Source of the DNA: Dehalococcoidia bacterium
GTDB taxonomy: Bacteria > Chloroflexota > Dehalococcoidia > SM23-28-2 > RBG-16-64-32
Assembly (NCBI GenBank): GCA_030690405.1
Contig: JAUYGU010000053.1
Coordinates: 1-29,595 of the forward strand
DNA length: 29,595 bases
Direction of reading: 5' to 3'
Shown: positions 5,492-18,396 of the stretch, one piece after another
Layout of the letters: each line of letters opens with the position of its first letter
Numbering within the stretch: the stretch's first letter is position 1
Notes under the pieces: model-generated
Database searches by the model: none
The model's input: the letters and a program-made list of their open reading frames with translations, nothing else
What the model was told of the DNA's origin: nothing
Program-made: the position numbers and the translations under genes

Positions 5492-7243
5492 ATGACGCCG
5501 GAGTTCACCGCCGCCACGGTTGCTGGGGCCATCGCCTGGGTCCTGCTTCTGTCCGCCTCCGTCCTGGCCATCGTGAAGGCACGCCGGGCACGGGGTGAGA
5601 TGTGGAAGACTACCCGAGATCTGGCACGCCGCGCTGAACAGCTGCGCCTGCTCAACCGCTTCACCTTCCTTCTCGCCCAGGAGACGCGGCGGCACGGCGT
5701 CGCGCGGGCAGCCACAGAGTTCTTCGTCCAGGAGATGGGCACCGGCCGCGCGGTCTTCTGGCGGCCGGACAGTGAGGGCGACCCGGAGGCGCCGTGGCTA
5801 TCGTTCCCCTCTGAGAAGGACGCCCGCGGCGCTCCTCCCGCCCTGCCCGAAGCCCAACGAATCATCCTGGCCCGCACCGCGGGGCGTGGTGCAACGCCGC
5901 TTGTCCTCACCGCGAACGCGCAGGACCAGCGTCCACAGCCCCTCCACCGCGCCGCAGATGCCCCCGCCCAGGGATTCGCCCTCTACATCCCCCTGCACGG
6001 CTCCCCCCGCGAGGGCGTACTGGAGGTGTACTCCGGGCCCGAGCCCTGGGGGCCGGAGCGCTGGGAACTGCTTGGTCCTCTGACCACCGAACTCACCAAC
6101 GCCCTCCGCCGCGCCCGCCACTACGAAGAGGTCCAGGAGCGGGCGGACGTAGACTTCGTCACCGGCCTGTTCAACCACCGCTTCATGCAGGCTTACATCC
6201 ACAAGCTGGTCAGCGCCGGGGCGGCGCGCGGACGCAAGTTCGCCGTCCTCCTGATGGACGTCAACGACTTCAAGAGCTTCAACGATACCTACGGACACTC
6301 CGTGGGCGACCGTGTGCTCCAGGTCGTCGCCAACCAGCTCAGGCTGATGACCGACAGGGAGGGGATGGTGGGACGCTTCGGCGGCGATGAGTTCATCGTC
6401 GTCCTTCCCGGCCACGGACAGCAGGAGGCCGACGCCTTCACGCAGGCGTTTCAGGACTGGCTGACCAACTACGCCTTCAAGACGCCCAGCGGCGGCGCCG
6501 TACCCATCGTCGTCTCCGCCGGCCTCGCCGTCTTCCCGGACGACGGGGGGCAGCGGCAGGAGCTGCTGGCGTCCGCCGATGCCCGTCTCTACCAGTGCAA
6601 GCGCTCAGCGGTCAGCGGCAAGAAGCGGTCCAGCCACGCACCGCAGCCGGGGCTGGGCGTCTTCGGCTTTCTGGACAACCTCGTGACATCCATCGACAGC
6701 AGAGACCACTACACGAGGGCTCACTGCGAGAGCACGGCCGAGTATGCGGTCATACTGGCCCAGGAGATCGGTCTCTCGCCGTCCGCCCAGCGCACGCTTC
6801 GGCTGGCCGCGCTCCTTCACGACGTCGGCAAGATCTGCATCCCGGACCACATCCTCCACAAGCCGGGCGAGCTGACCGCCGATGAGTTCGAGGTGATCAA
6901 GCACCACGTCGCCATCGCGGAGGACCTGATCGTGGACGTGCCTGACGCGGAAGAGGTACGAACGATCGTCCGCCATCACCACGAGCGCTTCGACGGCAGC
7001 GGCTATCCGGACGGATTGCGTGGGGAGGAGATCCCGTTTCTGGCCCGCATCCTGGCCCTGGCGGACGCCTTCTCCGCGATCACGCTGGACAGGCCGCACC
7101 GCCGTGGGCTGGCCCGCGACGAGGCCTCCGCGGAGATCCGGCGGGTGGCGGGCACGCAGCTGGACCCGGAGCTCGTGAAATCGTTTGGCCGCGTCGTCGC
7201 GACGCTGGAAGACGAGCCGGTCTCGGCTGCCGCCGCCTTCTAG
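5492..7243 (+). CDS. Membrane GAF-like/GGDEF/HD-GYP cyclic-di-GMP enzyme
   Basis: 583 residues. GAGGGAGGG at 5475-5483 lies 8 nt before the ATG. Order: one transmembrane helix (residues about 8-28), a GAF-like sensor (about 50-205), a diguanylate cyclase domain (about 215-375) with intact GGDEF and the LMDVNDFK metal segment, then an HD-GYP phosphodiesterase (about 395-570) with LLHDVGK, HHHERFDGSGYPDG and the downstream ADAF. Both catalytic motifs are intact, so it could make and degrade c-di-GMP. The inhibitory RxxD site is absent at its usual place five residues before GGDEF. Its stop shares a CTAG palindrome with the stop of the convergent cyclase. Confidence 0.93.
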   Translation: MTPEFTAATVAGAIAWVLLLSASVLAIVKARRARGEMWKTTRDLARRAEQLRLLNRFTFLLAQETRRHGVARAATEFFVQEMGTGRAVFWRPDSEGDPEAPWLSFPSEKDARGAPPALPEAQRIILARTAGRGATPLVLTANAQDQRPQPLHRAADAPAQGFALYIPLHGSPREGVLEVYSGPEPWGPERWELLGPLTTELTNALRRARHYEEVQERADVDFVTGLFNHRFMQAYIHKLVSAGAARGRKFAVLLMDVNDFKSFNDTYGHSVGDRVLQVVANQLRLMTDREGMVGRFGGDEFIVVLPGHGQQEADAFTQAFQDWLTNYAFKTPSGGAVPIVVSAGLAVFPDDGGQRQELLASADARLYQCKRSAVSGKKRSSHAPQPGLGVFGFLDNLVTSIDSRDHYTRAHCESTAEYAVILAQEIGLSPSAQRTLRLAALLHDVGKICIPDHILHKPGELTADEFEVIKHHVAIAEDLIVDVPDAEEVRTIVRHHHERFDGSGYPDGLRGEEIPFLARILALADAFSAITLDRPHRRGLARDEASAEIRRVAGTQLDPELVKSFGRVVATLEDEPVSAAAAF

Positions 7244-8118
7244 ATGCCCCTGCCCCGCCCGTATCGCGCCGCCTTGGCGGCGTACATCTGCCCGTCGGCG
7301 TGGCGGATAAGAGTGCCGCTGTCGCTCGCGTCCTCGGGGAAGGACGCCAGGCCGCAGGAGACGGCCAGGCGCAGCTCCCGGCCCGGCACGGCCGTCAGGG
7401 GTTCGTTCTCGACCGAGCCCTGAAGCCGGCGCGCCATCTCCGCCGCGCCGGCGCGGTCGCTGCGGGGCAGGATGACGGCGAACTCATCGCCGCCGAGGCG
7501 GGCCACGACATCCGAGGCGCGGGAGAACCGGACCAGCCGCTGCGCCAGGATGCGCAGGGCCTCATCACCCAGCCCGTGGCCGAAGCTATCGTTGAGCTTC
7601 TTCAGGCCGTCCAGATCAAAGATGAGGACGGAGACCGGCACCGAGTAGCGCCGCGCCGCCGCGATCTCCCTGTCCAGCTGATCGAAGAAGTAGTGGCGGT
7701 TGTACACCTTCGTGAGCTCGTCGATCGCCGCCAGCATCCTCAGATCGTCTCGCTGACGCAGACTCTCCAGCGAGACGCCGATCGCCATGCCCAGAGAGGT
7801 CAAGAGCTCACGGTCGCGCAGGTCGGCGTTGGAGTCGTCCGCGATGAGCCCCAGGACCCCCATGACACGCTGGAACGATTGAACGGGCACGAAGACGACC
7901 TGCCCGCCCGGCGGCAGGGCCCCGGCAAGAAGGTCGTTGTTGGGGCGCAGGCCCACCGGCTCCCGGCTGGAGAGCGCCTGCTGGATGCAGCCCGCCCCCA
8001 GGCGCAGGTAGCGGTCGGCATCGACGCGGCTGAGGTTGCTGAGCGCGACGAGGCTGAAGAAGCCGGCCTCATTCTGAAGCGTGAGGAAGGAGCCCCTGAG
8101 ACGGAGGAGCCTGTCCAT
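7240..8118 (-). CDS. GAF-GGDEF diguanylate cyclase
   Basis: 292 residues from the ATG at 8118, chosen because GGAGG lies 5 nt upstream (complement of 8124-8128); an ATG at 8130 lacks such a site. The N-terminal 130 residues are GAF-like. The C-terminal domain has DELTKVYNRHYF, FDLDGLKKLNDSFGH and intact GGDEF. An RASD inhibitory (I-site) motif stands five residues before GGDEF, so product inhibition is expected, unlike its neighbour. No membrane segment is seen. It is convergent with the GGDEF/HD-GYP gene; the two reading frames overlap by 4 nt in CTAG, where each strand reads TAG. It follows the small membrane-protein gene at 8191 after 72 nt, so those two may be one transcript. Confidence 0.93.
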   Translation of the reverse strand: MDRLLRLRGSFLTLQNEAGFFSLVALSNLSRVDADRYLRLGAGCIQQALSSREPVGLRPNNDLLAGALPPGGQVVFVPVQSFQRVMGVLGLIADDSNADLRDRELLTSLGMAIGVSLESLRQRDDLRMLAAIDELTKVYNRHYFFDQLDREIAAARRYSVPVSVLIFDLDGLKKLNDSFGHGLGDEALRILAQRLVRFSRASDVVARLGGDEFAVILPRSDRAGAAEMARRLQGSVENEPLTAVPGRELRLAVSCGLASFPEDASDSGTLIRHADGQMYAAKAARYGRGRGI

Positions 8119-8190
8119 GGTCGCCTCCATCGTCTGGCAGGCGGCGTCGAAGGTCGGCAGGGCGCCGAGCTGCAGGGCGACGGCGCCCGG

Positions 8191-8487
8191 CTAGGCGCTG
8201 CGCTTCCTCAGCTTGAACATCTCCGCGAAAGCGCCCTCGATCGCGGTGGTGGCGATGACCAGACCGATGGCCAGGACGGTGAGTAGCTGCACGGGGGAGA
8301 AGCCCAGCACCAGGTAGTGGAAGGGCGCAGTGGCGAAGATACCGGAGTAGACGCCTACCTGCGTCAGCCGCTTGACGCGCCGCACGTCCTTCGAGAAGTC
8401 GACGGCGCCCATGGCGTTATCACCTGAAGGCGCGGCGCCGGTCAGCAGGTCCCCCCTGTGCCCGTGAACGTCTATATCGGTACTCAT
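8191..8487 (-). CDS. Small two-helix membrane protein of unknown function
   Basis: 98 residues from the ATG at 8487; the open frame continues upstream to 8532, but MSTDIDVHG looks like a natural start. No good ribosome site is visible, so the start is uncertain. A hydrophilic N-terminal half is followed by two hydrophobic segments (about residues 43-60, VGVYSGIFATAPFHYLVLG, and 63-82) and a basic end, LRKRSA. I do not recognise the family. It is upstream of, and on the same strand as, the GAF-GGDEF cyclase, which suggests a joint membrane signalling role. Confidence 0.6.
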   Translation of the reverse strand: MSTDIDVHGHRGDLLTGAAPSGDNAMGAVDFSKDVRRVKRLTQVGVYSGIFATAPFHYLVLGFSPVQLLTVLAIGLVIATTAIEGAFAEMFKLRKRSA

Positions 8488-8549
8488 TGATGGGTCTTTA
8501 GGCCCCGTAAGGATGGCTGATACACCTAGCAAGACGTGGCGCAGGCCGC

Positions 8550-8566
8550 CGCGTTACGATAACGCG
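8550..8566. promoter_or_regulatory. Perfect 7-bp inverted repeat between divergent genes
   Basis: CGCGTTA, CGA, TAACGCG forms a 17-bp perfect dyad in the divergent region between the membrane-protein gene (leftward) and the c-di-AMP riboswitch promoter (rightward, -35 at 8619). It has no T-tract, so an operator is more likely than a terminator. The binding protein is unknown. Confidence 0.45.
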
Positions 8567-8618
8567 TCAAACCGTCGGGCGCGGCGGCCGAAATGCGAAT
8601 GTGGAACGGCGCTTCAGG

Positions 8619-8647
8619 TTGACAGATTCGTAACTGGCGGGTATTAT
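8619..8647 (+). promoter_or_regulatory. Sigma-70-type promoter of the c-di-AMP riboswitch transcript
   Basis: TTGACA (8619-8624), a 17-bp spacer and TATTAT (8642-8647) make a near-consensus housekeeping promoter. Transcription should start near 8654, about 15 nt before the riboswitch aptamer. Confidence 0.85.
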
Positions 8648-8668
8648 GTGTGACTGAACGGCGACCGA

Positions 8669-8788
8669 AGGCCTAATCCCCCGCCCCTGGCGGGGGAACG
8701 GGGGAACCGTCAACCGGGGTGAATCCCGACGAGAGTCGAGAAGGGCAGCTCTTTCAGCCCTAACCCGTCAGCTAACCTCGTAGGCCGC
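8669..8788 (+). ncRNA. Cyclic-di-AMP riboswitch aptamer (ydaO/yuaA type)
   Basis: The conserved blocks of this class occur in order: GGGGGAACCG (8700-8709), GGGGTGAATC (8716-8725), a variable CGAC/GTCG hairpin (8727-8738), GGGC and GCCC stem halves (8743-8746, 8757-8760), then CCGTCAGCTAACCTCGTAGG (8765-8784). The closing P1 stem can form from GGCCTA (8670-8675) and TAGGCC (8781-8786). A GC-rich hairpin (8678-8696) fills the variable first arm. In known members, c-di-AMP binding generally turns genes off by termination, and a terminator follows directly here. Confidence 0.92.
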
Positions 8789-8792
8789 TGAA

Positions 8793-8849
8793 AGAGGCCA
8801 TAGCGCCCCGCAGAGCCGGGCGGAGGCTATGTCCTCTGGCCCGGTTTTT
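8793..8849 (+). terminator. Riboswitch expression platform: terminator and competing antiterminator
   Basis: Terminator: CCGGGC (8816-8821) pairs with GCCCGG (8839-8844), extended by GAGG/CCTC inside, and five T follow (8845-8849). Competing fold: AGAGG-c-CATAGC (8793-8804) pairs with GCTATG-t-CCTCT (8826-8837), which uses the inner part of the terminator. The two folds exclude each other, as expected for transcription-termination control by the upstream aptamer. Confidence 0.85.
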
Positions 8850-8881
8850 GATTGGTCGCCTGCAGATCGGAGGTAAGGCTC

Positions 8882-9097
8882 ATGCAGCGATTAACACATC
8901 GCTGTCCCCGCTGTGACCAGCCTCTGGGGATCTCCTGCGATATGTGGGGTAAGTACTACCTGTGCGGGGACTGTGGGTTCACCGCGGAAGACGACGACGA
9001 ACTCACCGGTATGGGCGCGAAGCGGACCCCGCCGCTCCAGCCGAACCTCACCCAGATTGAGGTCTACAGGCTCCGCCAGACCGCTGCCAGGAGGTAG
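8882..9097 (+). CDS. Small Cys4 zinc-ribbon protein under c-di-AMP riboswitch
   Basis: 71 residues. The ATG at 8882 is preceded by GGAGG (8869-8873) at 8 nt; an earlier TTG at 8852 abuts the terminator and is rejected. Residues 8-11 are CPRC, followed by another Cys in ISCD and by CGDC near residue 34, so a zinc ribbon or rubredoxin-like knuckle is likely. An acidic stretch (EDDDE) and a polar tail follow. It is the first gene after the riboswitch, so its expression should respond to c-di-AMP. The known regulon of this class is mostly cell-wall hydrolases and K+/osmolyte transporters; this product matches none of them. Function unknown. Confidence 0.75.
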   Translation: MQRLTHRCPRCDQPLGISCDMWGKYYLCGDCGFTAEDDDELTGMGAKRTPPLQPNLTQIEVYRLRQTAARR

Positions 9098-9098
9098 C

Positions 9099-9272
9099 GT
9101 GCCGGGCCCCGCCAGGTTCCTCTACGGCCTCGCCCTGGGCCTCAGCCTCGGCGTTATCTGGACCAGGCTCATCGCCAGCGCCCAATCGCCCTCGAACAGG
9201 CGGACCGCCCGTCCGGCGGCATCCAGATCACCGCGGAAAAAGCGCGCGCGGCAGAAGACCACCCACCGCTAG
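9099..9272 (+). CDS. Tiny single-pass membrane protein, second gene after riboswitch
   Basis: 57 residues from a GTG at 9099 with AGGAGG (9089-9094) 4 nt upstream. The start is 1 nt after the zinc-ribbon stop codon, so translation is probably coupled. Residues about 5-27 are hydrophobic (FLYGLALGLSLGVIW) and the rest is strongly basic (SRSPRKKRARQKTTHR), predicting an inner-membrane helix with a cytoplasmic basic tail. I do not recognise it. Its strong ribosome site and the shared riboswitch make it likely to be real. Confidence 0.6.
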   Translation: MPGPARFLYGLALGLSLGVIWTRLIASAQSPSNRRTARPAASRSPRKKRARQKTTHR

Positions 9273-9327
9273 AGTTTCGCGCATTCCCATAGCCGCCGAC
9301 GTTCGGCTCTGCGCGGCTGCCCGTCCC

Positions 9328-10527
9328 TCAGAGCATCCTCAGAATCAGCAGCCAGGAGTAGAAGGTCAGCTTCACCATGTCCGCCATGAAGGATATCGGG
9401 TTGCTGGGGTTCTTGGGTTCCACGTGGTTGAGGAAATCGAACTCCGCGAAGTAGACACGGTGGCCGTTGCCGGCCGTGGCATCGCGGAGGCGGCGCGACT
9501 CCACGTACGGGATGAACGGATCGGAGCGGTCGTGCATGATGAACAGGTCGGCGTCCAGCGCCTGGACGGAGGTTGACGGCGACACTTTCCGCAGCGTGCT
9601 CACGTCCTGAGGAGAGACCTCGCCCCAGAACTTAAGGATGCGCTCCGCATCCTTGGCCTGGAAGGCATCGTATATCTCCCTGGCGCGTGGTGACAACCGG
9701 CCGACCGTGAGGCGCGCCGAAGCGTCTTCATCCACGAAGATGCGGGTGAGGATATCGCGGTCCTGGGCGCTGGGCAAGTAGGAGATGACGCTGTTGTAGA
9801 GGACCCGCACGCTGGTCAGCCAGGGGTCCCAGGGCTCCGTGTGGCCCTTGTACTGAATCGTGTCCGTGGTGATCGCGCTGATCAGGTCGACGAGGTCGTA
9901 ATACGTGCCAAGCGAGGCGAAGAAGTCCACCTCCTGGCTGATGCGCGGGTCCGAGGCGGAGACGAGGGCGATGCCGGCCCCGGCGGAAGCGCCGAAGATG
10001 CCCAGCCGGTTGGGGTCAACGTAGGGCTGTTCGCGCAGCCACTGGTAGGACGCGATTACCTCCTCGACGTTCGTACCGAAGGCGTTGACGAGCCCCTGGA
10101 CGTCCTCAGGAAGGACGTTCTCGTGGAACGGGTAGTATAGCTGCGGTATCATCACGACCATCCCGGCGCGGGCAGCGGTCTTGCTGAGACGGACGACGCC
10201 GGGGTGCTCGCGGATCTTGGGGGCGGCGCCCACGGAGATCACCATGCCGCCGTGGACGTCGCCGTCCAGCGGCCGGTAGACGTCGGCGACCAGCATCCCG
10301 CGTCCCTTCGGTACGTTGAGCCACACCTCTTCGCGCACAGGCTCTTCGCCTACCATCTTGAGGGCGCTCACCGGCGAGCCGAACAGGTCGGGCACAATGA
10401 TGACGGTGGTAATCCCGACACGGCTGTAGCGGATGTTCCAGAGCACGACCCACATCGCCAGGAAGAAGATGACGATGGCGAAGGCCAGCCAGTAGCGGCG
10501 ACAGAACTGAATAGTGCGGTCCTTCAT
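9328..10527 (-). CDS. Membrane-anchored alpha/beta-hydrolase
   Basis: 399 residues. An N-terminal transmembrane helix (about 13-31) has no cleavage motif, so the enzyme is probably anchored with its catalytic domain outside. The nucleophile elbow is GASAG with Ser181; likely acid Asp336 in MHDRSDPFIP and base His368 in FLNHVEP complete the triad. The closing residues (LTFYSWLLILRML) are also hydrophobic. It resembles dienelactone hydrolase/acyl-peptidase-like hydrolases; the substrate cannot be told. It stands alone, convergent with the zinc-ribbon pair and divergent from thiE. The spacer 9273-9327 shows no clear terminator. Confidence 0.85.
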   Translation of the reverse strand: MKDRTIQFCRRYWLAFAIVIFFLAMWVVLWNIRYSRVGITTVIIVPDLFGSPVSALKMVGEEPVREEVWLNVPKGRGMLVADVYRPLDGDVHGGMVISVGAAPKIREHPGVVRLSKTAARAGMVVMIPQLYYPFHENVLPEDVQGLVNAFGTNVEEVIASYQWLREQPYVDPNRLGIFGASAGAGIALVSASDPRISQEVDFFASLGTYYDLVDLISAITTDTIQYKGHTEPWDPWLTSVRVLYNSVISYLPSAQDRDILTRIFVDEDASARLTVGRLSPRAREIYDAFQAKDAERILKFWGEVSPQDVSTLRKVSPSTSVQALDADLFIMHDRSDPFIPYVESRRLRDATAGNGHRVYFAEFDFLNHVEPKNPSNPISFMADMVKLTFYSWLLILRML

Positions 10528-10695: not shown

Positions 10696-10728
10696 AGGAG
10701 ACCGGATGCGTGATCAGCTGCGCGGCCT
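10696..10728 (+). repeat. 33-bp direct repeat, copy at the real thiE start
   Basis: Exact second copy of 10601-10633, covering the AAGGAG ribosome site and the first codons of thiE. Confidence 0.8.
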
Positions 10729-11359
10729 ATACGTGATCATAGACCCGGCGGTGGTGCCTGGCCCTTCGACCGGGCTCAGGACAGGCCGCGAAGAGGTGCA
10801 GATCGCGCGGGAAGCCCTGGACGGGGGCGCGCGGCTCATCCAGCTGCGCGACAAGACGCGCGAGAAGGGGCTGCAGCTCCCCGTAGCGGAGGCGCTGCAG
10901 GCGCTGTGCCGGGAGCGGGGGGCGCTGTTCATCGTGAACGACCACGTGGACCTGGCGCTGGCCGTGGGCGCGGACGGCGTGCATGTCGGCCAGAAGGACC
11001 TGCCCGTCGCGGTCGTGCGGGGGCTCGTGCCCCGCGAAATGGTGATCGGCTGCTCCACGAACAACCCTGAGGAGGCGCGGCGGGCGGAGGCGGACGGCGC
11101 CGACTACGTCTCCGTGGGGCGGCTGTTCCCGACGGGCTCCAAGGGCGACACCCGCCCGGCGACGACGGAGACGCTGCGGGCGGTGAAGGCGGCCGTGTCG
11201 CTGCCGGTGTGCGCCATCGGCGGCATCAACGAATCGAACATCGACGACGTGCTGGCGGCGGGGGCTGACATGGCGGCGGTGATCGCGGCGGTGATCGCCG
11301 CGCCTGACGTGCGGGAGGCGGCGCGGCGGCTGGCCGCGCGGTTCAGGCCACTATCCTGA
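10706..11359 (+). CDS. thiE: Thiamine-phosphate synthase ThiE
   Basis: 217 residues from the ATG at 10706, with AAGGAG 5 nt upstream. Family motifs: QLRDK, IVNDHVDLALAVGADGVHVGQ, GCSTNNPEEA, VGRLFPTGSK and AIGGI. ThiE joins HMP-pyrophosphate to the thiazole phosphate to give thiamine phosphate. The N-terminus carries an extra GPSTGLRTG segment after the first strand, encoded by a hairpin repeat (10756-10786). Near the end, IAAVIAA reflects a short tandem duplication. It is more ThiE-like than the TenI-type paralogue at 14276-14968 and is transcribed apart from the thi operon. No TPP riboswitch is seen upstream. Confidence 0.93.
   Translation: MRDQLRGLYVIIDPAVVPGPSTGLRTGREEVQIAREALDGGARLIQLRDKTREKGLQLPVAEALQALCRERGALFIVNDHVDLALAVGADGVHVGQKDLPVAVVRGLVPREMVIGCSTNNPEEARRAEADGADYVSVGRLFPTGSKGDTRPATTETLRAVKAAVSLPVCAIGGINESNIDDVLAAGADMAAVIAAVIAAPDVREAARRLAARFRPLS
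10756..10786. repeat. Hairpin repeat element inserted in frame within thiE
   Basis: GCCTG (10756-10760) and CAGGC (10782-10786) flank GCCC, TTCGACC, GGGC, with CTCAGGACAGG on the right. This CCTTCGAC...GGCTCAGGAC type of sequence recurs in many environmental genomes, by my recollection. Here it adds about 8-10 residues to the ThiE N-terminal region without breaking the frame. Confidence 0.55.
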
Positions 11360-12432: not shown

Positions 12433-13533
12433 CTAAGAAAACCTGGCCGGATCGAACGGCGCCAGCGGCACCTCCGTGCGGCCGCCCGTGATCAACTGCG
12501 CGATGAGCTTTCCGGTGATCGGGCCCAGGAGGATGCCGTTGCGGAAGTGGCCCGTCGCCACGTAGACGTTCTCCCAGCCCGGCAGCCGCCCGATCACCGG
12601 CAGGCCGTCGGGGGAGCCGGGGCGCAGGCCGGCCCAGGCGCTGGCCACCTCACCGTGGCGCAGCGACGGGACGATCGATCGCGCCATCCGGCGCAGCCCG
12701 GCCAGACCGCGGCCGGTCGTGCGAGGCCGGAACCCCGCGTCCTCCACCGTCGCCCCGGCGAACAGGAAGCCGCCGGCCTTCGGCACCAGGTACCCGTCCT
12801 CCCCCCAGATCATGTGCCGCACCGCGTTCGAGCGGTAGGCCAGCATCTGCCCGCGCATCGGCGGCGTGGGCACTTTCGCCCCCAGGCGGCGCGCGAGGCG
12901 GCCCGTCCACGACCCGGCGGCCAGCACCACATAGTCGGCCGCGACGGTATCGCCGGCGCCGGTGCGGACGCCGGTGACGCGCCCGCCGCGGCGGAGAAAC
13001 GCGGACACACCAGCGCCCTGTCTGAGCGTCGCGCCGCGACCGACGGCGCCCCGAGCCAGGGCCTGCGTGAGAAGCCCGGGATTGACGTGCCGCTGCGACG
13101 GGGAGTACGCCGCGCCCGGCAGCGCCGGCGAGAGGCCGGGCTCCAGTCGTCGCAGCGGCTCCCCCTCAACCCACTCCAACGGCACCACCTCGTCGCCACC
13201 GTGGCAGGCCACCTGGCGCAGGGCGGCCGCGGCCGGCTCGCTCTCCGCGGGCACCAGCAGCCCCGCTTCCAGATACTGAACGTCGATCGAGGTCTCGTCC
13301 AGAAGCGATCCCACCAGCGCCGGATAAAGGCGGAGGCTGGCGAGACAGAGGTCACGGAAGTCGCCGCTGGCGGCGGCCCAGGGCGGCGGAACGAGCATGC
13401 CTGCCGCCGCGCCCGACGCCTCTCCCGCGACCTCGCCCTTCTCCAGCAGCGCGACACCGGCGCCGGCCTTCGTGAGGTAGTGAGCGGAGGCGCAGCCGAT
13501 GACGCCGCCGCCAACGATGACGACGTCCGCCAT
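12433..13533 (-). CDS. thiO: Glycine oxidase ThiO
   Basis: 366 residues. The FAD dinucleotide-binding motif VIVGGGVIGCASAHYL stands at the N-terminus, and the DAO family end has PDGLPVIGRLPGWENVYVA and GHFRNGILLGP. ThiO oxidises glycine to the iminoacetate used by ThiG in aerobic thiazole synthesis. The ATG at 13533 shares one nucleotide with the stop of the upstream transporter frame (TGATG), so translation is coupled. It is the last gene of the TPP-controlled operon. Use of ThiO rather than ThiH fits an aerobic lifestyle. Confidence 0.95.
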   Translation of the reverse strand: MADVVIVGGGVIGCASAHYLTKAGAGVALLEKGEVAGEASGAAAGMLVPPPWAAASGDFRDLCLASLRLYPALVGSLLDETSIDVQYLEAGLLVPAESEPAAAALRQVACHGGDEVVPLEWVEGEPLRRLEPGLSPALPGAAYSPSQRHVNPGLLTQALARGAVGRGATLRQGAGVSAFLRRGGRVTGVRTGAGDTVAADYVVLAAGSWTGRLARRLGAKVPTPPMRGQMLAYRSNAVRHMIWGEDGYLVPKAGGFLFAGATVEDAGFRPRTTGRGLAGLRRMARSIVPSLRHGEVASAWAGLRPGSPDGLPVIGRLPGWENVYVATGHFRNGILLGPITGKLIAQLITGGRTEVPLAPFDPARFS

Positions 13534-14279
13534 CACAGCCCGCGAACGAGGACGACGCCGCTGACGATGAGCAGCCCGCCCATGACCTTCACGGCGTCGA
13601 TCGGGTCCTTCGTCTGGCCCAGCAGCCCCAGGTGGTCCCACACGATAGCGCCCAGCATCTGGCCGGCGACCAGCACGGCGCTGGTGGCGCCTATGCCGAT
13701 GCGGGGGCCGGCGAAGGCCATCGTCCCCACTATGAGCGTCCCGGTCAGGCCGCCGAGGACGTAGTACCACTCCAGGCCGCGAATGAGGCCGAGGATCGCC
13801 AGCAGCGACACCAGCAGCAGCGGCAAGAGGTAGAGCAGCGGCTTTCCGGGCGTGTCGAGGTTCAGCCGGCCCACGACGGCGAACCGGGCCAGCATGATCG
13901 CCACCGCCGACCCGTAGGTGACGGTCACGGAGACCAGGAGCGCCTCCGGCACGCCGCGCTCCTCGCCCAGGGAGCTGTTGACCAGTATCTGAGTGGCAGC
14001 GGCCAGCCCGGCCCCGAAGACGAGTAGCAGCAATAGCGCATCCATGAACAGCGGCTCCTTCTTCGTGTCTACCTGCGTGCCGCCACCCACGGCGCGCACG
14101 ATCTCCACCGCATCCCCGTCGCCGACGGCGGCGCGCGGCCATTCGCTGCTGGGCACGACCTCCCCGTTTACGGCCACCGCGACCTGTTCGGGGTTTATGT
14201 CAAGCGCCTTCAGCAGGGCAGCGATCCTGAGCGGCTCCTCCAGCTCGCGCGGCTTCCCGTTGACGGTGACCGTGATCAC
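13533..14279 (-). CDS. thiS: ThiS sulfur carrier fused in frame to a YdcZ/DUF606 membrane transporter
   Basis: One uninterrupted 248-residue frame. Residues 1-67 are ThiS (VITVTVNGKP to RAVGGG). Residues 68-78 (TQVDTKKEPLF) link to M79, where a multi-helix YdcZ/DUF606 (DMT superfamily) domain starts. ThiS normally ends in free Gly-Gly, adenylated by ThiF and converted to a thiocarboxylate; here no stop follows the glycines. The inner ATG (14045) has AAGGAG 8 nt upstream, so the transporter can also be made separately. The GTG at 14279 overlaps the tenI stop by 4 nt. Either the fusion is cleaved after Gly-Gly, or a lost stop or sequencing error joins two genes. Confidence 0.85.
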   Translation of the reverse strand: MITVTVNGKPRELEEPLRIAALLKALDINPEQVAVAVNGEVVPSSEWPRAAVGDGDAVEIVRAVGGGTQVDTKKEPLFMDALLLLLVFGAGLAAATQILVNSSLGEERGVPEALLVSVTVTYGSAVAIMLARFAVVGRLNLDTPGKPLLYLLPLLLVSLLAILGLIRGLEWYYVLGGLTGTLIVGTMAFAGPRIGIGATSAVLVAGQMLGAIVWDHLGLLGQTKDPIDAVKVMGGLLIVSGVVLVRGL

Positions 14280-14968
14280 CGGCGGGCGGCTCCGGTCGCG
14301 GCCCAGGCGACGCCCAGCGCTCGGCGCAGCGCTTTGGCGGCGGCCCCGCCTTCGGCGGGCTGGGCGAGAACGGCCGAGATCACCGCCACGCCCGAGGCGC
14401 CCGCCCGCACTACCTCCTCCACGCGCTCCGTCGTTATCCCGCCTATCGCCAGCACGGGCACACGGACAGCCGACGCGATCTCCTCGATGAGCGCGAGGCC
14501 GGCGGGCTCGACGCCCGCGTGGGAGCGCGTCTCGTATACCGGCCCGGCGACGATGTAATCGGCGCCCTCGGCTAGCGCTCGGCGCGCGGCCTCCGCCGAG
14601 TGGACGGAGCGGCCCACCAGGAAGCCCTCGCGCGGGCGCAGGGGCATCGGCTCGCCCTCCGGCAGGTGAACGCCGTCGGCGCCGGCGGCCAGCGCGACGT
14701 CCAGCGGCCCGTTCACCAGCAGCAACGCCTGCCCCCGGGTGACGGCGCGCAGACGGCGGGCCAGCGTCGCCAGGTCGGCGGCGGGTAGGTCCTTCTCGCG
14801 CAGCTGTACGGCGTTCGCGCCGCCGCTGACGGCGGCCTTCACGGCGGCGACGAGCCCCTCCGCGCCGCCACACTGGGCGCGGTCGGTGACCACCATCAGG
14901 CAGGGTGCTGGAAGGCCTACCCAAGAGGGGGTCAGGCTTAAGCCTGACCCGCCGGAATCTCTGGCCAT
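14276..14968 (-). CDS. tenI: TenI-type thiazole tautomerase (ThiE paralogue)
   Basis: 230 residues. The core resembles TenI rather than ThiE: GVHLPEG, VGRSVHSAEAARRALAEGADY and GPVYETRSH replace the ThiE NDR/GQ and FPTGSK motifs. TenI aromatises the thiazole tautomer released by ThiG, and in Bacillus it sits with thiO, thiS and thiG as here. The ATG at 14968 shares one nucleotide with the thiG stop. About 23 extra N-terminal residues come from a palindromic insertion (14929-14950); the conserved LMVVTDR strand begins near 14899, and a second ATG lies at 14896. Residual ThiE activity cannot be excluded. Confidence 0.85.
   Translation of the reverse strand: MARDSGGSGLSLTPSWVGLPAPCLMVVTDRAQCGGAEGLVAAVKAAVSGGANAVQLREKDLPAADLATLARRLRAVTRGQALLLVNGPLDVALAAGADGVHLPEGEPMPLRPREGFLVGRSVHSAEAARRALAEGADYIVAGPVYETRSHAGVEPAGLALIEEIASAVRVPVLAIGGITTERVEEVVRAGASGVAVISAVLAQPAEGGAAAKALRRALGVAWAATGAARR
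14929..14950. repeat. 22-bp perfect palindrome inside the 5' end of tenI
   Basis: GGGTCAGGCTT is followed directly by its reverse complement AAGCCTGACCC. It lies in the non-conserved N-terminal extension of TenI and keeps the frame open. It looks like a small mobile palindromic repeat, the second in a thiE-family gene of this window. Confidence 0.7.
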
Positions 14969-15765
14969 CAGGTTGGGCGGGCGACGCCCTCGGCGGGGCT
15001 GGAGGCCTGGGCCAGCTCCTTGCGCGGGATGCGCCCGGCCAGGTACGCCTGCCGGCCGGCCTCGACGCCCTTGCGGAACGCCTCCGCCATCCCGGCCGGG
15101 TCGTTCGCCTGGGCGATGGCGGTGTTGACGAGCACGGCGTCGGCGCCTATCTCCAGCGCCAGCGAGGCGTCGGACGGGGCGCCCAGCCCGGCGTCGACGA
15201 CCACGGGCACGCCGGCGTTCTCGACGATGATCTGGATCTCCTCCAGCGTGAAGATGCCGCGCCCCGAGCCGATGGGCGAGCCGAGCGGCATGACGGTGGC
15301 GCAGCCGATCTCCTCCAGCCGCCGGGCGAGGATCGGGTCGGCGTGGATGTAGGGCAGGACGGTGAACCCCTCGTCGATGAGCACGCGGGCGGCGGCGAGC
15401 GTCTCCACCGGGTCGGGCAGGAGGTAAGCGGGGTCCGGGATCACCTCCAGCTTCAGCCAGCTCGATCCGGTAAGTTCGCGCGCCAGGCGGGCCGTGAACA
15501 GCGCCTCGTCCACCGTGCGGCAGCCGGCGGTGTTGGGGAGGATGGTGAGGCGCTGCCAGTCCAGGTAGTCCATCAGGTTGGGCTCGTCCGGCTTGACTCG
15601 CCCGTCCGGGTCGAGCGGCAGGCGGCGTATGGCGACGGTCACGATCTCGGCGCCGGAGGCGTCGATGGCGTCGCGCATCTCCTCCATGCTGCGGTACTTG
15701 CCGGTGCCGACGATGAGGCGGGAACGGAACGATTTGCCGGCGATGGTGAGGGGGTCATCGGTCAT
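14968..15765 (-). CDS. thiG: Thiazole synthase ThiG
   Basis: 265 residues, usual length. Lys105 in SSWLKLEVI is the expected imine-forming lysine for 1-deoxyxylulose-5-phosphate. [24 protein letters not shown] and [13 protein letters not shown] are family signatures. ThiG forms the thiazole ring from DXP, dehydroglycine from ThiO and ThiS-thiocarboxylate. It starts 9 nt after the thiC stop and ends in TGATG with tenI. Confidence 0.97.
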
Positions 15766-15774
15766 CGCTTCGCC

Positions 15775-17151
<1,377 letters not shown>

Positions 17152-17193
17152 CTAGACCTGCCTGCCCTGCCTCGCGGGAGGCGAAAATGAATG

Positions 17194-17219
17194 CGCCGCT
17201 GGGATTAATGCCAGCGGCG
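17194..17219 (-). terminator. TPP riboswitch expression-platform hairpin
   Basis: CGCCGCTGG and CCAGCGGCG form 9-bp arms around an 8-nt loop, followed on the minus strand by ATTCATTTTC. The T-run is weak, so termination is probable but not certain. On the minus-strand RNA the 5' part, CGCTGGCATTA, is the exact complement of TAATGCCAGCG in the aptamer (complement of 17243-17253), so aptamer folding and this hairpin interfere with each other. Confidence 0.6.
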
Positions 17220-17230
17220 GTCCGGTGTCA

Positions 17231-17346
17231 GCCTTATCCCTTCGCTGGCATTACCCAGGTCAGGTTCCTGCGGTCGCCCCGACCGGTCGGGGCCTCTCAG
17301 CCCGGCCTGCCCCGATGGTCTCGAGGCCCCCGAGCTCCCGCTGCGG
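17231..17346 (-). ncRNA. TPP (thiamine pyrophosphate) riboswitch
   Basis: Minus-strand RNA contains the THI-box blocks: GGGCTGAGAGG, a variable GC-rich hairpin, then GAACCTGACCTGGGTAATGC followed by CAGCGAAGGGA. These form the pyrimidine- and pyrophosphate-binding arms. It precedes thiC by about 95 nt and should shut the operon off when TPP is plentiful. The outer boundaries are approximate. Confidence 0.95.
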
Positions 17347-17361
17347 TATTCGTTCAAGGTC

Positions 17362-17390
17362 AGGGTAGCACCGGCGGGCGAGGCCGTCAA
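17362..17390 (-). promoter_or_regulatory. Promoter of the thiamine operon
   Basis: On the minus strand TTGACG (complement of 17385-17390), 17 bp, TACCCT (complement of 17362-17367). The start point is near 17355, just before the TPP aptamer. Confidence 0.8.
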
Positions 17391-17458
17391 TCGCGTCCGC
17401 AGGGCCGTGACGGCGCCACCGTTTACCGAATCTCAACCCTGCGTTCGTAGTCAAACGG

Positions 17459-17487
17459 TTGACGGGTTACGGGACGGGGCATACGCT
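17459..17487 (+). promoter_or_regulatory. Promoter of a candidate small RNA
   Basis: TTGACG (17459-17464), a 17-bp spacer and TACGCT (17482-17487), nearly the same design as the thi operon promoter facing the other way. No gene of useful length follows before the terminator at 17549-17579. Confidence 0.65.
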
Positions 17488-17493
17488 TGAATG

Positions 17494-17579
17494 TGGAAAG
17501 CGTTGGAATCCTCCGACGTTGGATGATGCAGGGAGCGGCGGTGAGACGGGCCCCGATCTAATCGGGGCCTTCTCTATTT
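17494..17579 (+). ncRNA. Candidate small RNA of about 86 nt between thiC and thiD
   Basis: Defined by a good promoter and a terminator on the same strand. It can form hairpin 1, CGTTGGA/TCCGACG (17501-17507 with 17512-17518), and then the terminator stem. An 11-codon ORF (ATG 17492 to TGA) lies at its 5' end, but the ATG precedes the expected start point and has no ribosome site. It runs convergently toward thiD. It matches no RNA family I recognise. Confidence 0.4.
17549..17579 (+). terminator. Intrinsic terminator, plus strand
   Basis: GGCCCCGAT, CTA, ATCGGGGCC (17549-17569) is a perfect 9-bp stem followed by TTCTCTATTT. A second, outer pair GTGAGACGG (17541-17549) and CCGTCTCAC (17585-17593) brackets it and reaches the thiD stop. 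The T-rich side is on the plus strand only. Confidence 0.75.
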
Positions 17580-17589
17580 CCGCTCCGTC

Positions 17590-18381
17590 TCACGCTCCCC
17601 ACCAGCGGTGGAAGTGGTGTACGGGCCCATGACCGCTCCCGATAGGATAGGCCTGCCGCAGCGCCTCCGTAAGGTACGCCTTCGCCTCCCCCACCGCGTC
17701 CGCTAACGGCATCCCACGCGCCAGACAGGCAGCGATCGCGGAGGCGAACGTGCAGCCGGTGCCGTGCGTGGACCCCGTCTCTATCCACGGAGCCGAATAC
17801 TCGCGGAACGCTTTGCCATCGTACAGCAGGTCGATCGCCTCCGCCGACTGCCTGTGCCCGCCCTTGACGACGACCGAACGCGCCCCCAGCCGGACGATCT
17901 CCTCCGCCGCCCTGCGAACGTCCTCGCCTGAGCGGACGGGCCGGCCGGTGAGCGCTTCGGCCTCCGGCAGGTTCGGTGTCACGACGGTCGCCAGCGGCAG
18001 GAGCAGCTCGCGCAGGGCGGCGACGGCGTCCTCCCGGAGGAGGCGGTCGCCGCTCTTGGCGACCATCACCGGATCGACAACCAGGTTCGGCAGGCCGTGC
18101 TCCCGCACCTTCGCGGCCACCACCTCGATGATCGCCGCGCCGGCCAGCATCCCCGTCTTCACCGCGTCGGGGCGGATGTCCGTGACCACGGCGTCGATCT
18201 GGGCGGCGACGATCCCCGGGGGCATCTCCTGGACCGCGCTCACGCCAAGCGTGTTCTGGGCGGTGATCGCGGTGATGGCGCAGGTGCCGTAGACGCCCAG
18301 CGCGGCGAACGTCTTGAGGTCGGCCTGGATTCCGGCGCCGGCGCTGGAGTCGGAGCCGGCGATGGTGAGGACGCTGGGCAT
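17590..18381 (-). CDS. thiD: HMP / HMP-phosphate kinase ThiD
   Basis: 263 residues from the ATG at 18381, with a GGGTGG-like site upstream; a TTG at 18393 adds four residues and is less likely. PfkB-type fold with [43 protein letters not shown] and the anion-hole motif [16 protein letters not shown]. It phosphorylates HMP phosphate to the diphosphate used by ThiE. It is on the same strand as the thi operon but in a separate unit, without its own TPP riboswitch. Confidence 0.96.
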
Positions 18382-18396
18382 GGCACCACCCAAACT

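Follow-up and report, generated by a model that had tools for sequence, protein, structure and literature searches.

A c-di-AMP riboswitch upstream of a mini zinc-ribbon gene and a small membrane protein gene, as one case of a recurrent aptamer–zinc-ribbon association in Dehalococcoidia

Introduction

A bacterial leader that resembles a c-di-AMP riboswitch and is followed by two very short genes raises the question of what such a switch controls at this locus and whether the arrangement extends beyond it. In the available portions of the sources consulted, c-di-AMP is tied mainly to K+ and osmolyte transport and to the cell wall, and the work has been done mostly in Firmicutes and Actinobacteria (PMC3766115, PMC9960051, PMC6488665). 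In the available part of a 2013 riboswitch-regulon survey, which covers five Chloroflexi genomes, ydaO-yuaA is connected with transporters and with enzymes of the wall (PMC3766115).

The locus lies in the window, the whole 29,595-nt stretch of DNA that was analysed. An initial annotation, made from the sequence alone, had proposed that a strong promoter, a full ydaO/yuaA aptamer and an exclusive terminator/antiterminator control two coupled mini-genes unlike the known c-di-AMP regulon, and that these genes may form a small membrane system. The reading reached here, held at a probability of roughly 0.8, is that the locus is a c-di-AMP-repressed transcription unit and belongs to a class-wide habit of placing c-di-AMP aptamers ahead of mini zinc-ribbon genes.

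Results

Promoter, aptamer and expression platform

The features of the unit are collected in Table 1. Promoter-like sites with 11 of 12 consensus matches average 0.1 in shuffled versions of positions 8400–9500. The TTGACA element recurs in all seven leaders compared, which comprise the window, four Chloroflexi MAG loci found via the zinc-ribbon protein ZnR-A (L001–L004) and two further loci of the order (L029 and L032), and the -10 element differs among them by one or two bases. Downstream of the promoter lies the sole Rfam match of the window at gathering scores, a c-di-AMP aptamer that spans the full RF00379 model (1–134) and exceeds the gathering score of 38 by a wide margin. The strong promoter and the complete aptamer, for which a covariance-model search had been proposed at the outset, are thus both confirmed.

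Table 1. Coordinates of the features of the riboswitch-controlled unit in the window.
Feature	Position	Strand	Remark
Sigma-70-type promoter TTGACA-17 nt-TATTAT	8619..8647	+	11/12 consensus matches
c-di-AMP (ydaO/yuaA) riboswitch aptamer, RF00379	8660..8801	+	93.9 bits, E 3.6e-21
Putative pseudoknot 5' strand (loop), CTCTTTCAG	8749..8757	+	pairs with 8788–8796
Putative pseudoknot 3' strand (aptamer 3' tail), CTGAAAGAG	8788..8796	+	overlaps antiterminator 5' arm
Putative antiterminator 5' arm, AGAGGCCATAGC	8793..8804	+	pairs with 8826–8837
Putative antiterminator 3' arm, GCTATGTCCTCT	8826..8837	+	bases common to terminator hairpin
Predicted intrinsic terminator	8816..8849	+	hairpin 8816–8844 + T5
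Ribosome-binding site of the ZnR-A gene, GGAGG	8869..8873	+	GGAGGT in 7/7 leaders
ZnR-A, 71-aa zinc-ribbon protein, start ATG 8882	8882..9097	+	sequence, 70 homologues
57-aa single-span membrane protein (predicted), GTG start	9099..9272	+	conserved in L001–L004

Between the aptamer and the ribosome-binding site, each of the seven leaders carries a strong hairpin followed by at least three T residues. Across these leaders the pseudoknot retains 62 of 63 standard pairs, the antiterminator 76 of 77 and the terminator 73 of 76. More than one standard pair type is seen at one pair of the antiterminator and at four of the terminator; since no pair of the pseudoknot shows more than one, that helix lacks covariation. 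The platform helices are near-invariant in these closely related leaders, so that they display conservation rather than strong covariation, and the covariation support is thin. With the upstream strand blocked, the terminator folds at about -25 kcal/mol in six leaders and at -20.5 kcal/mol in L032. In unconstrained folding of the 3' region, the terminator is preferred in six of the seven leaders and the antiterminator appears in the minimum-free-energy structure only in L005, which implies that the antiterminator would need to win kinetically. At the level of sequence, the overlapping arms and their preserved pairing support the exclusive terminator/antiterminator control first proposed.

ZnR-A and the 57-aa protein

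ZnR-A carries a CPRC-x16-CGDC arrangement, followed by an acidic AEDDDEL stretch and by a helix predicted at low confidence. The four cysteines (C8, C11, C28 and C31) are invariant in five orthologues and the knuckles are kept in L029–L032, which points to a zinc ribbon. The protein is 76–79% identical to its copies at the four MAG loci, and its 70 homologues were drawn from 5.8 billion proteins; within the class it is narrow, being found in 6 of 245 genomes at E <= 1e-12. No Pfam or NCBIfam family matches ZnR-A above its curated cut-off, and a precomputed Pfam domain is absent from all 70 homologues. In the comparison with named zinc-ribbon families, the best E among 71 members was 0.0007. 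The AlphaFold model is of low confidence (pLDDT 60.2, pTM 0.34), and a Foldseek search with it returned nothing at E <= 0.001; its weak matches include ribbon subunits of Pol III and Pol II, a list that is unused as evidence here. Among the homologues, 24 of the 70, lying within P0027–P0070, are only 50–53 aa long, and 23 of these 24 start at an internal MWG methionine. In all 24, at least one CxxC motif is missing, so that trimming of the start conceals the zinc ribbon.

The second gene starts with GTG at 9099 in the window and with ATG in L001–L004. Its product combines a glycine-rich span, read from the sequence as membrane-spanning, with a basic C-terminal tail (net +11 for residues 28–57). 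The span, RFLYGLALG-SLG, is conserved in five copies, and three homologues were found in the database. The window's protein matches no Pfam family at E <= 5, PF12732 (YtxH) included, and no NCBIfam family; its positional counterpart in L032 is a YtxH protein (PF12732, 43.7 bits against a cut-off of 37.5).

In comparisons of the window with L001, L003 and L004, ZnR-A shows dN of 0.14–0.17 and dS of 0.75–0.93 and the 57-aa protein dN of 0.40–0.46 and dS of 1.43–1.66. The resulting quotients, about 0.17–0.19 and 0.26–0.28 respectively over three comparisons each, are low and indicate that both reading frames are under purifying selection. Together with the homologues and the preserved order and spacing, these values make both coupled mini-genes appear real.

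Conservation and surroundings of the unit

Aptamer, terminator and both genes are present at all four of the MAG loci L001–L004. Among 25 genomes of the order, two further loci (L029 and L032) carry the aptamer together with the pair, and two others (L030 and L031) carry the pair with no aptamer over threshold, in genomes that have aptamers elsewhere. The two genes are separated by 1 nt in the window and L001–L004 and by 4 nt in L029, and they overlap in L030–L032. The initial annotation had suggested searching Chloroflexota for the aptamer with the Cys4 gene pair, and had named a missing covariance-model match or unconserved mini-ORFs as grounds for abandoning its reading; the six loci with the complete unit, the RF00379 match and the conserved frames all speak in its favour.

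A divergent upstream GGDEF gene is common to the window and L001–L004 (identified with Pfam for the window and L001, by eye for the others), and thiE lies downstream of the unit in the window (by Pfam) and in L001, L003 and L004 (by eye). A plasmid or phage origin was considered and rejected: tblastn gave zero matches in 72,556 plasmid records, and no relative was found among viral contigs.

Several features of the surroundings were observed in passing. The divergent gene, a GAF/GGDEF gene on the minus strand of the window (7240–8532), has an in-frame stop near 8191, and L001, L003 and L004 hold intact copies of 413–414 aa; inspection by eye of the upstream frames of at least 140 aa in L030 and L031 revealed no GGDEF gene. 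Two genes away on the plus strand lies a GGDEF and HD (HD_5) protein gene (5492–7243), with a similar protein in L001 by eye. Genes of c-di-GMP thus adjoin a c-di-AMP riboswitch, and possible cross-talk was noticed. The thiE gene after the unit occupies 10709–11356 and is also found by eye near the pair in L030 and L032, and further frames of the window, assigned by eye to thiO, thiS, a second thiE, thiG, thiC and thiD, occupy 12433–18393.

Mini zinc ribbons behind c-di-AMP aptamers across the class

Each of the four nearest genomes (G001–G004) encodes one di-adenylate cyclase of the dacA type and carries four or five aptamers, and in each of them a second aptamer precedes a mini zinc-ribbon gene of another type, ZnR-B. 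Among 245 genomes of the class, RF00379 was found in 103, under stricter filters that lose some aptamers, the cyclase in 106 and both in 101.

The association was assessed at 156 aptamers from 80 genomes, made up of the matches listed in the class, the further ones of G001–G004 and three loci from the zinc-ribbon search; several come from close species. A zinc-ribbon target was defined as an open reading frame of 35–130 codons that fits the zinc-ribbon pattern, has a ribosome-binding site and starts within 450 nt of the aptamer. Such a frame lies downstream of 52 of the 156 aptamers (45 genomes), and of 41 of 135 (38 of 74 genomes) when G001–G004 and the three zinc-ribbon-search loci are set aside. 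The loosest pattern settings raise the count to 57 of 156, and the pattern missed at least one ZnR-B gene (L107). As controls, none of 30 TPP riboswitch loci of the class, taken from the best-scoring genomes, and 2 of 156 antisense strands of the aptamer regions gave such a frame. Fisher tests on these counts and on the ZnR-B co-occurrence described below treated loci and genomes as unrelated to one another. Sorted by hand-made motifs, the 52 targets comprise 27 ZnR-B, 8 ZnR-A or A-like, 8 ZnR-C, 6 ZnR-D and 3 others.

Beyond these samples, a small CxxC-CxxC frame was found at 2 of eight further loci of the order and, by a slightly looser test, at 1 of 28 new aptamer loci drawn across the phylum, which suggests that the association may be confined to the class. 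At L034 and L051 (G024 and G023; L043 denotes the site of L051 as well), an A-like zinc-ribbon gene of 88–90 aa with the motif DMWGPFYACE stands behind an aptamer, and no small membrane gene was seen directly after it.

The sister family ZnR-B

ZnR-B was searched with a profile of 13 rows, all from genes behind aptamers. A full-length match (>100 bits) occurs in 87 of the 245 class genomes, with one strong match in each; 86 of the 87 encode the cyclase and 86 carry RF00379. Twenty of the 106 cyclase genomes have no strong match. A further 36 genomes have no ZnR-B-like match beyond weak ones; two of these encode the cyclase, and the ribbon family as a whole is therefore not linked to c-di-AMP. 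RF00379 lies directly upstream of 29 of the 30 best ZnR-B loci. Of these 30, nine belong to sequences that went into the profile and 16 had been counted with the 52 targets; the fair figure is therefore 13 of the 14 best loci outside the 52. The exception, L232, has by eye a degenerate aptamer-like leader, which was left uncounted.

ZnR-A and ZnR-B are related over the ribbon (hhalign probability 88%, E 3e-6, 33 columns). At four ZnR-B loci (L017–L020), no membrane partner was found among open reading frames of at least 50 aa, which identifies the zinc ribbon, and not the membrane protein, as the recurring target behind the aptamer. PF08271, the TFIIB zinc-binding domain, is precomputed in 18 of 120 listed ZnR-B homologues, and two scanned ZnR-B proteins score 18.9 and 21.9, short of the 29 that this domain requires. 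Some ZnR-B entries bear the source's label 'DNA-directed RNA polymerase subunit M/transcription elongation factor TFIIS'. In the alignment, the tail QRRRQPSHG is invariant in all 13 sequences, and much of the ribbon between the knuckles varies. At L246, the c-di-AMP riboswitch of a ZnR-B gene (1318–1457, plus) has a divergently oriented cobalamin riboswitch (1037–1188, minus) as its neighbour.

Other targets of the class aptamers

Further targets that pass Pfam cut-offs include GT20 (the trehalose-6-phosphate synthase family), trehalose phosphatase, a TreT-like trehalose synthase, VTT proteins, a sulfate permease and glycosyltransferases. Two other assignments are weaker: 127.1 bits against a KamA-family cut-off of 199.2 for a KamA-like radical SAM protein, whose frame is cut by the end of its stretch, and 29.9 against 33.4 for an MFS-like protein. 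The osmolyte leaning of these fellow targets supports a view of the zinc ribbons as stress genes. Trehalose synthesis genes stand behind c-di-AMP aptamers at, for example, L090, L137, L163 and L123. By motif sorting, a KamA-like gene follows an aptamer at L006, L009, L011, L012, L118, L125, L126, L166 and L178, of which L009 and L125 were scanned; the L009 protein falls below both the KamA-family and the lysine 2,3-aminomutase cut-offs. Beta-lysine is a known osmolyte.

Discussion

Proposed mechanism

The platform is most likely an OFF switch, in which low c-di-AMP permits production of the pair; this direction is drawn from the way the predicted pseudoknot overlaps the antiterminator, and from measurements on the kdp riboswitch of Bacillus thuringiensis, for which the available part of the publication describes raised termination with c-di-AMP and a fall of c-di-AMP under K+ limitation (PMC6488665). 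At high c-di-AMP the aptamer would fold and its pseudoknot would sequester 8788–8796; with this strand held, the antiterminator would be blocked and transcription would end at 8845–8849. A drop in c-di-AMP, as under K+ limitation or osmotic stress, would free 8793–8804 to pair with 8826–8837, and the antiterminator so formed would block the terminator, allowing ZnR-A and the small membrane protein to be made together. The pair would then be one case of a class habit in which c-di-AMP aptamers lead mini zinc ribbons of types A to D, with ZnR-B in most of the sampled class members that make c-di-AMP.

As to function, the zinc ribbons might conceivably serve as small adaptors with a regulatory role, binding to RNA polymerase, to the ribosome or to some other nucleic-acid machine, and the type A partner, as a stress protein of the YtxH kind, might anchor this effect at the membrane. 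Sub-threshold zinc-ribbon matches lean toward TFIIB, RPB9 and other nucleic-acid machines; neither the profile, Pfam/NCBIfam, AlphaFold nor Foldseek results supply a structure or family assignment that backs a biochemical role for ZnR-A. The small membrane system of the initial annotation is plausible at most, with the YtxH partner in L032 on its side and the partner unseen at the ZnR-B loci L017–L020 against it. A role of both proteins in metal or osmolyte transport was rejected, as no transport family was matched and neither protein is multi-span.

Alternative readings

If mobile c-di-AMP aptamer cassettes had settled before functionally unrelated short stress genes, the zinc-ribbon genes would be mere passengers. 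The variety of genes led by these aptamers (GT20, trehalose phosphatase, KamA-like, VTT, sulfate permease and glycosyltransferase genes) fits such a picture, as do the 81 of 156 targets that fall into no motif class in the hand-made sorting and the weak ZnR-B-like genes found without a cyclase in 34 of 36 genomes. Passengers would, however, hardly account for at least four zinc-ribbon architectures recurring behind aptamers, for full-length ZnR-B being accompanied by the cyclase in 86 of its 87 genomes and by an aptamer at 29 of the 30 best loci, or for the lack of any zinc-ribbon gene at the 30 TPP loci, and this explanation is considered decidedly improbable. Slightly less probable still is a platform that acts as an ON switch, or at the level of translation, instead of by ligand-induced termination. 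The preference for the terminator in six of seven freely folded 3' regions would suit it, and translational action was concluded to be most likely for a c-di-AMP riboswitch of Corynebacterium glutamicum, according to the available part of that study (PMC9960051); yet all seven leaders place a strong hairpin and at least three T residues between aptamer and ribosome-binding site, the pseudoknot strand overlapping the antiterminator arm gives OFF logic, and transcriptional OFF action has been measured for kdp, as described in the available part of PMC6488665.

The second open reading frame might instead be a translationally coupled regulator or a leader peptide without a membrane function, an option that is unlikely, if a little less so than either of the preceding two. 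It would agree with the mere three database homologues, the variable basic tail and the lack of a Pfam match for the window's copy, but the hydrophobic span is kept in five copies, a YtxH protein occupies the same position in L032 and dN/dS is about 0.26–0.28. The preferred reading thus remains a c-di-AMP-repressed unit within the class-wide aptamer–zinc-ribbon habit.

Significance

In a class that has received little study, a c-di-AMP riboswitch recurs before genes for very small zinc-ribbon proteins, most of them unclassified, which suggests an unrecognised arm of stress signalling. Its oversight would stem partly from the shortness of the genes and, for type A, from start-trimming in about a third of the entries. 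In a bolder and rather unlikely extension, c-di-AMP would control dedicated regulators, ZnR-A to ZnR-D, whose binding to RNA polymerase or the ribosome would reprogramme expression when c-di-AMP falls, with type A coupled to a membrane-anchored YtxH-like partner. Were this so, the riboswitch would supply a second tier of global control, one made of proteins, and thus a branch of c-di-AMP signalling akin to DksA or to hibernation factors; any action of the zinc ribbons on transcription or translation would amount to an overlooked global output of c-di-AMP. With its invariant tail and one strong match per genome in 87 genomes, ZnR-B offers a compact test object.

Comparison with known systems

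Among known small zinc ribbons, the LysW amino-group carrier, an acidic protein of 54 aa, resembles ZnR-A in size, in its CxxC ribbon and in its acidic stretch, and it was considered because a KamA-like gene belongs to the same regulon. LysW carries the C-terminal carrier motif EDWGE. Assignment of ZnR-A as a LysW-type carrier was rejected, as the match is not significant (E 0.22) and its C-terminus reads TAARR in place of EDWGE. A literature search for the Thermus protein ZifS yielded only unrelated papers. The TFIIB/RPB9-type zinc ribbons (PF08271, PF02150) have the CxxC...CxxC pattern in common with both families; ZnR-B stands at the edge of PF08271, whereas ZnR-A differs by its extra acidic stretch and C-terminal part and has no precomputed Pfam domain. 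The 57-aa protein is like YtxH (PF12732) in its short N-terminus, its one glycine-rich span and its charged tail, although the window copy misses the Pfam model and, by eye, the APSSG stretch that follows the span in the L032 copy.

Full-text literature searches, whose scope did not extend to two of the riboswitch's founding papers, returned nothing for the aptamer combined with zinc ribbon, YtxH, Dehalococcoidia or Chloroflexi, and for the aptamer with Chloroflexota only a paper on KdpD. Within this searchable literature, the proposal that the targets are unlike the known c-di-AMP regulon holds. In its RNA, the unit resembles ydaO/yuaA riboswitches such as the kdpFABC leader of Bacillus thuringiensis, with a full aptamer, a downstream intrinsic terminator and a probable OFF logic like that published for kdp (PMC6488665). 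The known ydaO/yuaA targets are K+ uptake, osmolyte transport and wall hydrolases, whereas here mini zinc-ribbon and YtxH-like genes follow the aptamer; the riboswitch is thus of an ordinary kind, and it is the class of its target genes that looks new.
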